Of a DNA stretch of 31,323 bases, positions 26,882 through 31,323 are shown one piece after another. Below the pieces are notes generated by a model. It did no database searches. It saw only the letters and a program-made list of their open reading frames with translations, and had not been told where the DNA came from. The stretch's first letter is position 1, and the number at the start of each line of letters is the position of its first letter. The position numbers and the translations under genes were made by a program. Origin of the DNA: a virus; the IMG/VR virus record IMGVR_UViG_3300022848_001121, positions 1 to 31,323 of that record. One strand, written 5' to 3'.

Positions 26882-27850
26882 TTAATCCTTCTTGGCTAGC
26901 TCGTTGAGCAACTCGCCCAACTGCTTGCTTTCCGCCGGGCTCAAATCTTCATCGCCATCGAACTCGCCGCCGATCTCGATCAACGCGTCGTGACTCGATG
27001 CGGACAGGAGACGACGTTCGTACGATGCGAATGCTTCGCTCTTGCCGTCCGCTGATTCGGCGATCAGTGGCGATTCTTCTTGCATCTCTGTCGACAAGTC
27101 CAAACCGCTTCCCATGTCGCCGAGTTTGCGTCGTTGAATCCCGGTCGATCGGACGTGTCCTTCAAACACAACATCCTCGTCGTCCTTCTCAAACGCATCG
27201 CGAATCTCTGCCGACAATGGCAACCACTTGGACACACGACGGAACACCGTTTTTTTAGCCATTTCGCTCCAATCGGTTTTCCATGGCCCGTTGTTGCCAG
27301 ACTTGGACCGATTGCGGATTGCCTCAACGGCATCCTTGGACATGACCTCGCACTTGGGTTCGCGGTCCTTCATTCGGACTTCGCAATACACCGCGATCAC
27401 ATCACCCTCGCTTTCCGGCTTGTCCTCGTCCCGTCGCAAATACCACGGGACATGATCGGCCACGATGCCTTTGCTGTACTCAAACAGGTCGCCTTCATGG
27501 ACAACGTCGGCATGGATCGACGACACAACACCGGATCGGTACGCCAGTTCCACCAATCCCTTGTAGTCAATGATGAGCTGGCAAGTGGTTCCATAGGGAA
27601 TCAAGTGCGCCCTGCGACCATCGGGCTCGAGTCCCCATTGGCTCAAGCTCATCATCGCCTCGAAGAACGAAGCCTGAGAACACTGGGCCAGTTTGGGAGT
27701 GCGGGTCAGTGCCGTAATAGCAACCCGCACCATCCGCTCGGGCGTCATGTGGTCAGGGAGTATCTTGGCGATCTCGTTCTTAAAATGTTCACCCGAAAGA
27801 TGATCGCGAATCGTTGGGGCGGACTTCGCAATTTGTTTGTCTTGACTCAT
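26882..27850 (-). CDS. recT: RecT-family single-strand annealing protein
   Basis: 322 residues, within the RecT range. The diagnostic features are present: 'PERMVRVAITALTRTPKLAQ' with 'CSQASFFEAMMSLSQWGLEP' in the first 85 residues, then 'AHLIPYGTTCQLIIDYKGLV' (80-100), 'LVELAYRSGVVSSIHADVV', and the later 'WKTDWSEMAKKTVFRRVSKW'. The acidic C-terminal tail (about 250-322) matches the regulatory tails of many annealing proteins. It pairs single-stranded DNA produced by the RecE-like exonuclease encoded just upstream. It works in homologous recombination and possibly in replication-coupled repair of phage DNA. Confidence 0.9.
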   Translation of the reverse strand: MSQDKQIAKSAPTIRDHLSGEHFKNEIAKILPDHMTPERMVRVAITALTRTPKLAQCSQASFFEAMMSLSQWGLEPDGRRAHLIPYGTTCQLIIDYKGLVELAYRSGVVSSIHADVVHEGDLFEYSKGIVADHVPWYLRRDEDKPESEGDVIAVYCEVRMKDREPKCEVMSKDAVEAIRNRSKSGNNGPWKTDWSEMAKKTVFRRVSKWLPLSAEIRDAFEKDDEDVVFEGHVRSTGIQRRKLGDMGSGLDLSTEMQEESPLIAESADGKSEAFASYERRLLSASSHDALIEIGGEFDGDEDLSPAESKQLGELLNELAKKD

Positions 27851-27899: not shown

Positions 27900-28907
27900 T
27901 CAGCTTGCCTCCCATTCTTTCTTGTAGTTCAGGTAATTCGGCATTGGCAGCGACAACACATCTCCGTAATGTTCGTGCTTCCAGATACCGCTCGACTCGC
28001 ATCGACGCAGACCACGGAACGCCTTCTCGATCTCTTCGACCGCTTGATCGATCCAAGCCGGTTCCAATTCGTAGACCTCCACGCGATAAGGTTTCTTTTT
28101 CTCAACGCAGACGAAGTGAAACGGAACCTCGCGACCCAGCAACGCGTTGACCATGCTGCCGTACAAGACTCGTTGCCGGGCATACCCGAAGTCGGCGACC
28201 GCGTTGGCAAACCCTTTCGGTGATGCACTCCGCACGGTCTTCAAGTCGGCAACGAAACCGCCCATCGCCGTCTCGCTATATCGATCCAACTTGCATCGCG
28301 TCAGAATGCCGGTGCCCGCGTGCTCGCCGATCAACGGAACCTCGCTTTCACCTTCACCGAACAGCAGACGATTGGCCGAGTCGTGAGCACGCAAGGCGTC
28401 CTCCATGTCACGAAGCTGATCGTACGTCTCGTTCGACGTGACAACCTGGCCCTCGGGAACAACGACCGACGATCGAACCTTTTGCTCGAGCTGATCGAAC
28501 TCCTCGCTTTTCATCAACACGCTGCCCTTATGCAACTTGGCCCAATCCGTGTAAGGCTTGCCACGGCAATAACCTTGCTCGTTCAACACATGATCGGGAA
28601 TCCGAGTCGCGATCCGAAACTTCGAGGCGATCTTCAAATACTCATTACGCGAAACCCCGGTCACTTCGGGATCCAGCACGGTCGACGTTTGCAGCCCACC
28701 CTCGAGCGTCATCTCATGAAGGGCGGTGCCGAGCAATCTATCCGGCGTATCGCCACTGGGTTCGATCAGACCCGTGTTGTAAAGACCGTCGTACAGAGCC
28801 GGGTCATCGAGGAACCTGCTCATCTTCGAGTTACTGACGCCTGGCCCAGCGTGATACTCTTCGTTGGTGCCAGCATCAAAACGTTCAATAGCGGTGAACT
28901 GAATCAC
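27900..28907 (-). CDS. RecE-like PD-(D/E)xK exonuclease
   Basis: 335 residues; the GTG start overlaps the csrA stop as GTGA. The nuclease core is clear: His64 in 'LLGTALHEMTLEG', Asp208 in the CKLDRY strand, Asp221-x-Lys223 in 'FVADLKTV', and Gln245 with Tyr in 'YARQRVLYG'. These match the exonuclease VIII C-terminal domain (DUF3799). Full-length E. coli RecE is much longer; only the catalytic domain is present here, as in most phages. It would degrade 5' strands to provide ssDNA for the RecT protein encoded downstream. Confidence 0.85.
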   Translation of the reverse strand: MIQFTAIERFDAGTNEEYHAGPGVSNSKMSRFLDDPALYDGLYNTGLIEPSGDTPDRLLGTALHEMTLEGGLQTSTVLDPEVTGVSRNEYLKIASKFRIATRIPDHVLNEQGYCRGKPYTDWAKLHKGSVLMKSEEFDQLEQKVRSSVVVPEGQVVTSNETYDQLRDMEDALRAHDSANRLLFGEGESEVPLIGEHAGTGILTRCKLDRYSETAMGGFVADLKTVRSASPKGFANAVADFGYARQRVLYGSMVNALLGREVPFHFVCVEKKKPYRVEVYELEPAWIDQAVEEIEKAFRGLRRCESSGIWKHEHYGDVLSLPMPNYLNYKKEWEAS

Positions 28908-29083
28908 TTATCATTACTTTCATTCTTGGGTTGGGTTTGAATAATGTCATCCCGATGGATGTCGATGGTCCGATCCGCGTCGATACCGATACGAACCTTG
29001 TCGCCACGAATGTCAACGACAACGACCTTGATGTCCTTGCCAATCATGATGGCTTCACCAATGCGTCTACTAAGAACCAACAC
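28904..29083 (-). CDS. csrA: CsrA-like RNA-binding regulator
   Basis: 59 residues from GTG 29083, which has AAAGGGAG about 6 nt upstream. A longer frame to 29233 would translate through the tRNA and is rejected. The protein begins MLVLSRRIGEAIMIG, keeps Arg6 and Arg7, the 'VRIGIDA' strand and the 'IHRDDI' helix start with Arg44, all key for RNA binding. CsrA dimers bind ANGGA motifs over ribosome sites and block or stabilise mRNA. The stop overlaps the recE start (GTGA), so the two are coupled. It may regulate the phage operon or redirect host carbon metabolism. Confidence 0.85.
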   Translation of the reverse strand: MLVLSRRIGEAIMIGKDIKVVVVDIRGDKVRIGIDADRTIDIHRDDIIQTQPKNESNDK

Positions 29084-29126
29084 GCCACACTCCCTTTGGT
29101 GTTGAAGAACAGGACTTTCAAAACAT

Positions 29127-29211
29127 TCGAGGCGATCGGAATCGAACCGACGCACGCCACCTTTCCGCAAACGCTTCTTAAATGGCCGCTCTACCAGTGA
29201 GCTACGCCTCG
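29127..29211 (-). tRNA. tRNA-like gene with a 21-nt anticodon loop
   Basis: An 85-nt cloverleaf: acceptor CGAGGCG/CGCCUCG (7 perfect pairs, discriminator A), D-arm GCUC/GAGC with loop ACUGGUA, anticodon stem GCCAU/GUGGC (5 pairs, last one U-G), variable region GUGC, T-arm GUCGG/CCGAU with loop UUCGAUU. Apart from the anticodon loop it is a normal 71-nt class I tRNA. The loop has 21 nt (29161-29181) where 7 are expected, an excess of 14. The anticodon cannot be assigned: reading from U33 gives AAG, and deleting the first 14 after UU gives GAA. CCA is not encoded. It might be an intron-bearing tRNA, a decoy or a decayed gene. Confidence 0.65.
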
Positions 29212-29907: not shown

Positions 29908-30055
29908 CGGCGTGCGAACCAACGCTCACGCCACGAAACGCAGGAATCCCCTTGCCTCCTATACGCAAAACAGCCCACGCGAATCAGGTTCACGAAGGCT
30001 GAGAGACGGCTAGCGTAAGACAAAGGGATTTAGGATCCAGTTCCTTTACTGGAGT

Positions 30056-30080
30056 GCAGGTTCGATTCCTGTCAGCCCTA
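30056..30080 (+). other. attP-like core: T-arm and 3' acceptor strand of a tRNA gene
   Basis: GCAGG-TTCGATT-CCTGT is a full T-arm, followed by CAGCCCT and discriminator A. This is the 3' end of a tRNA whose acceptor 5' strand (AGGGCTG) is absent upstream. A hairpin CCAGT/ACTGG at 30037-30052 partly mimics an anticodon stem but has a 6- or 8-nt loop, so the match to a host gene probably starts near the T-arm. Many temperate phages carry such tRNA 3' ends as their attachment core. It lies 77 nt before the integrase stop and between the two arm repeats. Confidence 0.65.
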
Positions 30081-30156: not shown

Positions 30157-31323
30157 TCACGATTGTTTGTACGGCGATTCATCGAAGTCGATCTTCCCTT
30201 GCAGATCACCGACGTAGAATTTCCGCGTCGTTGTCTCGCTCGAATGCCGCAGGATCTCCTGGCACAGTTGGATAGGCATCCCACGCAGGCTCCATCGCGT
30301 GACCATGCTCGACCGGAAGTGTTTGGCCGTGGCCGTCTTCGGTGGCGACCCGGGTTCGGCGATCACCTCGGCCTTGGCTCCGATCGCGGAGATCAGCTTG
30401 GACAGAGCGGTTCGGTCTTTCACTTCGCCGGTCTCGCAACGCGGCTGGTAAATCGCTTCCGTCCGATCCGCCCGCTCCCGCAGGTGCGATGCGAAGTCGT
30501 TGGTAATCCTGGCGACCTGCGCACGCCGGTTCTTCTGGGCGGAAGTCCACGACATCATCGGTGTCGGCGTGTCGAGTCCGATCGGGTAATGCCAGTCACG
30601 GCGGGTTGCGTGCATCCCCAACGGCTCTCGCATCCGACAACCACTGAGCCAAAGAGCTTCCAGGTATTCCTGAACACTCGCCGCCGACCGGGATCCAACC
30701 AGGCCCGGGCAAACGTCCTGCATCTTCCGCAGCGATTCCTCACTGATCGGGATCAACCGCATCGCAGGAAGGTTCTGCTCTTGTCGGCCACGTCTTCGAT
30801 TCGGCGGCATGTATCGCATCAACTCCAGGGAAGCCGCCCACGAAAGACCGCTTCGGAGCGTTGCCATGTAACTCGGGATCGATCCGACCGCGATCGGCTT
30901 AAAGCCATCAATCCCCCGTCGAAGCGCAGTTTCCACCGAGGCGAGGAACAGAGGGGACACGTCCGAAAGAACGAACTCCCCTTGAATGTCCCGGCCCGCA
31001 ACGGCATCGACGCGTTTACAGACGGCAGACCACTTGTATCGGTTGTCGCTCGATGTGTCACTGAGATGGTCAGTCAGGTAGCGATCGCAGAAACGATCCC
31101 ACGTCCATCCCTCGTTCCCCGAATTCAGCTTGGAATTCAGTTTGCTCTGAAGCTCGTCGGCCAGTTTATCGGCCGCTCGCTTCGATCTCTTGGAACGGGT
31201 GATGATTTCGGTCTTCTGGGTCTTAACAGACCGCGAGCCGAAGGGCCGCCACTTCAAGTAGTAGCAGCCCTTCGACGATTTCCAAAACGCGCTCACCCGC
31301 ACAGTGGGCGCACAATGATTCAT
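30157..31323 (-). CDS. int: Tyrosine recombinase, phage integrase
   Basis: 388 residues; the ATG lies exactly on the window edge, so an upstream start cannot be excluded. Residues 1-60 form the arm-binding-like N-terminal part, 70-185 the core-binding helical domain, 200-388 the catalytic domain. Catalytic residues: Arg230 in SGCRMRE, Lys264 near 'WTSAQKNRR', Arg307 in AKHFRSS, His330 in EILRHSS and Tyr340 in RKFYVG. The usual first His of HxxR is Lys304, as I recall for some planctomycete integrases. It should recombine the attP-like core next to its 3' end with a host tRNA gene. Confidence 0.85.
   Translation of the reverse strand: MNHCAPTVRVSAFWKSSKGCYYLKWRPFGSRSVKTQKTEIITRSKRSKRAADKLADELQSKLNSKLNSGNEGWTWDRFCDRYLTDHLSDTSSDNRYKWSAVCKRVDAVAGRDIQGEFVLSDVSPLFLASVETALRRGIDGFKPIAVGSIPSYMATLRSGLSWAASLELMRYMPPNRRRGRQEQNLPAMRLIPISEESLRKMQDVCPGLVGSRSAASVQEYLEALWLSGCRMREPLGMHATRRDWHYPIGLDTPTPMMSWTSAQKNRRAQVARITNDFASHLRERADRTEAIYQPRCETGEVKDRTALSKLISAIGAKAEVIAEPGSPPKTATAKHFRSSMVTRWSLRGMPIQLCQEILRHSSETTTRKFYVGDLQGKIDFDESPYKQS

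Follow-up and report, generated by a model that had tools for sequence, protein, structure and literature searches.

tRNA-like elements with altered anticodon regions upstream of phage csrA: a possible non-decoding leader

Cloverleaf and expanded loop at 29127-29211

What is a tRNA-shaped RNA for, if its stems are intact and its anticodon cannot be named? The question is posed by a short element in a virus contig, of which the window (the entire 31,323-nt stretch of DNA analysed here) yields a single RNA match in Rfam: RF00005, positions 29127-29211 on the minus strand, full length (1-71), at 48.2 bits against a cut-off of 29 bits. The alignment places the 14 excess nucleotides inside the anticodon loop. 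The predicted MFE and centroid structures are likewise cloverleaves, with acceptor, D and T stems paired at 7/7, 4/4 and 5/5 (the last with one G-U), bearing out the original prediction of an intact cloverleaf with a 5-bp anticodon stem and a 21-nt loop. The MFE fold extends that stem from 5 to 7 bp (GCCAUUU/AGGUGGC), leaving a loop of about 17 nt. Because the folding energy alone is unexceptional (z -1.2), it is the profile score, together with comparison, that carries the case for the cloverleaf. The parts of the element are:

29127..29211, minus strand: whole tRNA-like element, 85 nt, without encoded CCA (RF00005, 48.2 bits; MFE cloverleaf)
29205..29211, minus strand: acceptor stem, 5' strand, CGAGGCG (7/7 pairs with 29128-29134)
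29188..29202, minus strand: D arm, GCUC-ACUGGUA-GAGC, including the elbow GG (Rfam and MFE fold)
29182..29186, minus strand: anticodon stem, 5' strand, GCCAU (Rfam and MFE fold)
29161..29181, minus strand: 21-nt anticodon loop, UUAAGAAGCGUUUGCGGAAAG, which starts with CC in the near relative L009 (Rfam, MFE fold, L009 alignment)
29156..29160, minus strand: anticodon stem, 3' strand, GUGGC (Rfam and MFE fold)
29135..29151, minus strand: T arm, GUCGG-UUCGAUU-CCGAU (Rfam and MFE fold)
29128..29134, minus strand: acceptor stem, 3' strand, CGCCUCG (Rfam and MFE fold)
29127, minus strand: discriminator A (Rfam and MFE fold)

Run without introns, ARAGORN calls no tRNA at the element. With introns allowed, its call for the window is Phe(GAA) interrupted by 14 nt, and that for contig L009, which is 99% identical to the window over 6 kb, is Arg(GCG) interrupted by 11 nt; since these calls disagree, the element has no nameable stable anticodon. 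Of what a decoding tRNA requires, the arms and the D/T residues are present, and a 7-nt loop with U33 and a definable anticodon is lacking. The anatomy of an RNase P/RNase Z substrate, a coaxial acceptor/T-arm stack with a T loop, is also present. L009 carries the full 85 nt, and its only differences, two bases and thus too few for a rate test, are adjacent and confined to the loop (29180-29181, TT to CC). A reading of the excess as a long variable arm (class II) was rejected, as an anticodon stem at the normal position pairs at only 3/5. A short loop motif, TTTGCG, is common to the window and contig L051.

Recurrence of tRNA-like elements upstream of phage csrA

The gene that follows the element, which went unmentioned in the original prediction, is csrA, 43 nt downstream on the same strand. 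The features of this region are:

29084..29126, minus strand: csrA leader, 43 nt, with a Shine-Dalgarno-like AAAGGGAG (sequence)
28904..29083, minus strand: csrA, 59 aa, GTG start, carbon storage regulator family (Pfam PF02599, E 1.1e-18)
27900..28907, minus strand: exonuclease VIII-like gene, after csrA in the operon (phrog_412, E 6.7e-53)
26882..27850, minus strand: recT, the next operon gene (Pfam RecT, E 8.6e-51)
30157..31323, minus strand: tyrosine integrase (phrog_1, E 3.4e-10)
30026..30080, plus strand: attP core, corresponding to the 3' half of tRNA-Leu(UAG) (pattern match in Pirellulaceae tRNA-Leu genes)

As a simple scan found no intrinsic terminator between the element and csrA, their cotranscription is plausible. 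The tRNA-Leu(UAG) segment at 30026-30080 lacks a proper 5' half and adjoins the integrase, and its pattern, with some positions left free, is present in the tRNA-Leu genes of five Pirellulaceae; attP core and integrase together suggest that the window belongs to a temperate phage with a Pirellulaceae host. The order of csrA and the exonuclease VIII-like gene recurs in prophages L141 and L364.

The Pirellulaceae genome G472 carries three prophages with related RecT, and in two of them (L140 and L141) another tRNA-like element precedes csrA in the same place as in the window. Between these two, 131 nt are identical at the element, whereas csrA and the upstream flanks have diverged. This pair prompted a survey of 41 viral loci with CsrA relatives, 38 of which were scored for a strict T arm (5 pairs, a UUCRANY loop, same strand, at most 350 nt upstream of csrA). 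Such an arm was found at 10 of the 38 (8 independent), compared with 0.41 expected from the remainder of the same sequences on both strands; the Poisson estimate for this excess is about 1e-8, in a test framed after the first examples had been seen. About three quarters of the viral csrA loci have no recognisable T arm.

CsrA is very rare among phage genes. When all IMG/VR contigs were scanned for a T arm, a gap, GGA and an ATG-YTN-RTN-YT start, 16 of 94 pattern matches began a CsrA ORF, although the start motif is biased to CsrA-like N-termini and the real excess is smaller than this fraction suggests. ARAGORN called no canonical tRNA at 11 of these 16 and ordinary tRNAs at the other five; at the non-csrA matches with a full T stem, it called no canonical tRNA in 20 of 72, with 4 further odd calls. 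A scan for long-loop tRNAs that preceded any suspicion of csrA gave matches in 119 contigs, among which csrA was met once, in L048, where the gene begins 132 nt downstream of the long-loop tRNA. Of 53 distinct tRNA-like matches from that scan, 15 had an expanded loop. Most of these lie away from csrA, and a long loop was therefore rejected as the defining feature of a class.

The surroundings of the pair differ among phages. It stands before exo/recT in the window, L141 and L364, before RecE/RecT genes in L165, flanked by UvsX-like recombinase and exonuclease genes in L162, between Sak4-like and DNA polymerase genes in L153, and close to a helicase gene in L160. Its persistence across such differing surroundings (INDEPENDENCE) argues for a functional link between the element and csrA. 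Our results show a recurrent linkage of tRNA-like elements with phage csrA, seen in about two dozen viruses and prophages besides the window, and we hold this claim, taken by itself, with high confidence. Plain tRNA-csrA neighbourhood could account for part of it, given the five ordinary ARAGORN tRNAs and the Met-type CAU tRNAs of L149 and L165.

Host genomes and other phages served as controls. Among 80 csrA paralogues in ten Pirellulaceae genomes, one (L306) has an upstream T arm; csrA is followed there by genes for exonuclease VIII and replication initiation, and the region looks like a prophage from its gene content. The T-arm/RBS/start pattern occurs once in 294 planctomycete genomes, at a locus near-identical to phage locus L400, and a same-length pattern had 0 matches in 392 Planctomycetota genomes. 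An upstream T arm was absent from seven non-planctomycete csrA loci of the public phage collection (Pseudomonas phi297, Vibrio D279 and D65, Providencia PSTCR8lys and three unannotated records). The main chromosomal csrA of Pirellulaceae (L226-L255) has a tRNA-Glu(UUC) gene 350-750 nt downstream in nearly all genomes examined.

Kept stems and a variable anticodon region

Comparison across the csrA-linked set separates what is kept from what is free to change. Over 12 sequences, 97.2% of cells in the acceptor and T stems are paired, a score inflated by the choice by eye of acceptor strands that pair and hence supportive rather than independent; changes on both sides occur at 11 of the 12 pairs. 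Shuffled and slid controls pair far less than the real stems, and single acceptor matches are weak taken alone. Between the related L169 and L170, one acceptor-stem G-C pair is cleanly exchanged for A-U. A 12-bp stack with a UUCGANU-type loop is found in nearly all members, and acceptor sequences differ among nearly all of them. L400 and L571, whose surroundings are about 90% identical, show about 1 difference in 115 nt across the 3' half of the element and the csrA leader, and L140/L141 display this tendency in stronger form. The D arm is reduced in some members (L141, L160, L169/L170), and CCA is encoded only in L454. The pattern is thus one of a kept acceptor/T-arm stack, usually with the D/T elbow, and we infer that these are the parts under selection for function.

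The anticodon region takes many forms. Loops of 7 nt with CAU, GAA or CCA are found in L149, L165, L452, L479 and L474, the last three being canonical members of the Met, Phe and Trp types. Elsewhere the loop is a GAAA tetraloop (L306), a 5-nt AUGGA (L438), about 12 nt on a long stem (L048), 18-22 nt (the window, L153, L160) or at least 34 nt (L450, L162). In L409, whose T arm lies about 70 nt before csrA, the anticodon stem (GGGTTTGTC/GACAAACCC) ends in a further T arm and D arm, in apparently permuted order, as if two tRNAs had been joined via their anticodon stems. With the anticodon region so free to vary, most csrA-linked members probably do not decode.

Several further observations concern individual loci. 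L452 and L149 have the look of initiator tRNAs (CAU with a C1-A72 mismatch). The element of L454, about 150 nt, precedes a CsrA resembling the gammaproteobacterial type, and its host may not be a planctomycete. L167/L168 carry two tandem tRNA-like elements some 70-430 nt upstream of csrA, both with the 5' acceptor strand GGATCGG, and a 20-nt D-arm sequence of theirs is also found in L418. Two tRNA genes with about 60 extra anticodon-loop nucleotides (L177:3209-3335 and L150:4889-5017) lie 0.7-2.4 kb downstream of phage csrA. In L509, L544, L564, L570 and L511, a GNRA tetraloop replaces the anticodon loop (TTGCA-GCAA/GAAA-TGCAA); these tRNAs have an encoded CCA, stand beside ordinary tRNA genes and show no csrA link, and similar anticodon-less tRNAs occur in seven more viral contigs. 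Anticodon arms of 18-24 nt or in rearranged form, with no csrA nearby, are seen in L045, L103, L111, L058/L124, L066 and L024/L047.

Possible roles and relation to known systems

The acceptor/T-arm stack and the elbow are the determinants by which RNase P and RNase Z recognise their substrates, and decoding requires the anticodon region. Because the kept parts match the former and the variable part the latter, we favour a non-decoding tRNA-like leader of csrA, probably a punctuation mark for these two enzymes. Element and csrA would be transcribed as one RNA, in which RNase P would cut at the 5' end of the element and RNase Z at its CCA-less 3' end. Cleavage would give the csrA mRNA a defined 5' end, apart from the upstream operon, and could release a stable tRNA-like RNA. 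Identity and mechanism taken jointly, we put this tentative reading at roughly 40%. Of the options of the original prediction, the one that survives is a tRNA with a role outside decoding, in that tRNA bodies with unrelated or absent anticodons recur before phage csrA.

The main rival to the leader reading, though an unlikely one, is a separate trans-acting partner of CsrA, encoded in the same operon, in which a tRNA scaffold would carry an RNA that binds or titrates the protein in the manner of CsrB/RsmY. Such a partner would account for the constant pairing with csrA, and GGA is indeed found in the loop of the window element (GCGGAAAG), in the AUGGA mini-loop of L438 and in the D loops of L306 and L165. 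The triplet is not enriched, however, with 1 occurrence in the window against 1.9 expected and 0 in L160, L149 and L141, nor is the position of a GGA hairpin conserved; these counts, near or below expectation, weaken the CsrA-binding reading and led us to reject a CsrB/RsmY-type sponge defined by GGA content. Quite unlikely, in our estimation, is a tRNA that works through its acceptor and elbow, whether by anticodon-independent aminoacylation or as a mimic or decoy aimed at tRNA-binding enzymes or at defence nucleases; csrA would then be a neighbour selected along with it. The complete acceptor/D/T anatomy, the canonical Met, Phe and Trp-type members, the encoded CCA of L454 and the existence of phage tRNAs with a GNRA tetraloop in place of the anticodon and without csrA are all in keeping with it, but the members have no common identity elements or anticodon, their acceptor sequences nearly all differ, and such a role, including a decoy for anticodon nucleases, leaves the csrA link unexplained by itself.

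Damage and splicing fare less well. A decayed tRNA might have come to lie beside csrA through chance or moron-type insertion, as tRNA genes are insertion hot spots and csrA cassettes occur in varied contexts; this we judge improbable, given that stems are intact in unrelated members, that close relatives differ in the loop only, that the element of L140/L141 is more conserved than csrA, and that csrA is strongly enriched. The argument of the original prediction against simple decay is supported. Its suggestion of a small intron did not hold. An ordinary phage tRNA whose anticodon loop contains a spliced intron would fit the intact cloverleaf and the ARAGORN call of Phe(GAA) plus 14 nt, yet a different anticodon and intron are called in the 99%-identical L009, leaving no stable anticodon/exon junction; members with 4-5-nt loops hold nothing to splice, and loop size ranges up to a whole second tRNA body. 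The archaeal-type splicing endonuclease (PF01974) was found in 0 of 100 Pirellulaceae genomes, with archaeal controls positive. The 14-nt excess is also far below the size of a group I intron (about 200 nt or more, with a catalytic core), for which Rfam gives no match in the window. Splicing is accordingly a very improbable explanation.

Viewed more broadly, we think it reasonably probable that the csrA-linked, mostly anticodon-less tRNA-like RNAs form an undescribed phage class that functions as a module with CsrA. Its members would serve either as mRNA leaders that depend on tRNA processing or as regulators built on a tRNA scaffold, and would have arisen or been remodelled many times, the anticodon arm giving way to a mini-loop, a long loop or a second tRNA body. 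The usual explanations for phage tRNAs are codon usage or evasion of tRNA-cleaving defences. An anticodon that is gone, a remainder that is kept and a global translational regulator that travels alongside suggest that the tRNA fold is put to another purpose here. If the proposal is true, it would provide a phage example of tRNA punctuation in mRNA or of tRNA-scaffolded CsrA control, and many phage tRNA calls of undetermined type would become one defined class. The small size of the element allows direct tests with RNase P, RNase Z and purified CsrA.

With canonical phage tRNA genes, the element shares the cloverleaf, the D/T elbow and the RF00005 score; those genes have a usable 7-nt anticodon loop, unlike the window element and most csrA-linked members. 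RNAs of the CsrB/RsmY type sequester CsrA, and the genetic link to CsrA is alike, but the element has no GGA-hairpin repeats. The large members L400, L454 and L162 recall tmRNA in that an acceptor/T-arm domain remains while the anticodon region has been replaced; no tmRNA match was found in the window by ARAGORN or Rfam, nor in the csrA loci by Rfam, and that candidate was rejected. In mitochondrial tRNA punctuation, RNase P and RNase Z define RNA ends. The tRNA-like elements of MALAT1 and NEAT1 are described, in the available portion of the source, as cut by the tRNA-processing machinery (PMC12941219). The likeness that we propose to these and to mitochondrial punctuation is a tRNA-like fold that defines RNA ends; those systems are eukaryotic or organellar, whereas here it would be a phage mRNA leader with putative cleavage. 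In the open-access literature, our searches gave no account of tRNA-like elements linked to csrA or of phage tRNA loops such as these. The tRNAOther of Bacillus cereus is a pseudo-tRNA unused in translation (PMC3399842). Like the element, it is a tRNA-shaped RNA that is carried on foreign DNA and works outside decoding; it differs in that the partial text of that source does not mention a csrA link (PMC3399842). We place the element as a variant of tRNA-like elements, outside every family tested. As far as these partial accounts extend, its closest known kinds are pseudo-tRNAs, of which tRNAOther is one, and the tRNA-like processing signals that MALAT1 and NEAT1 exemplify.
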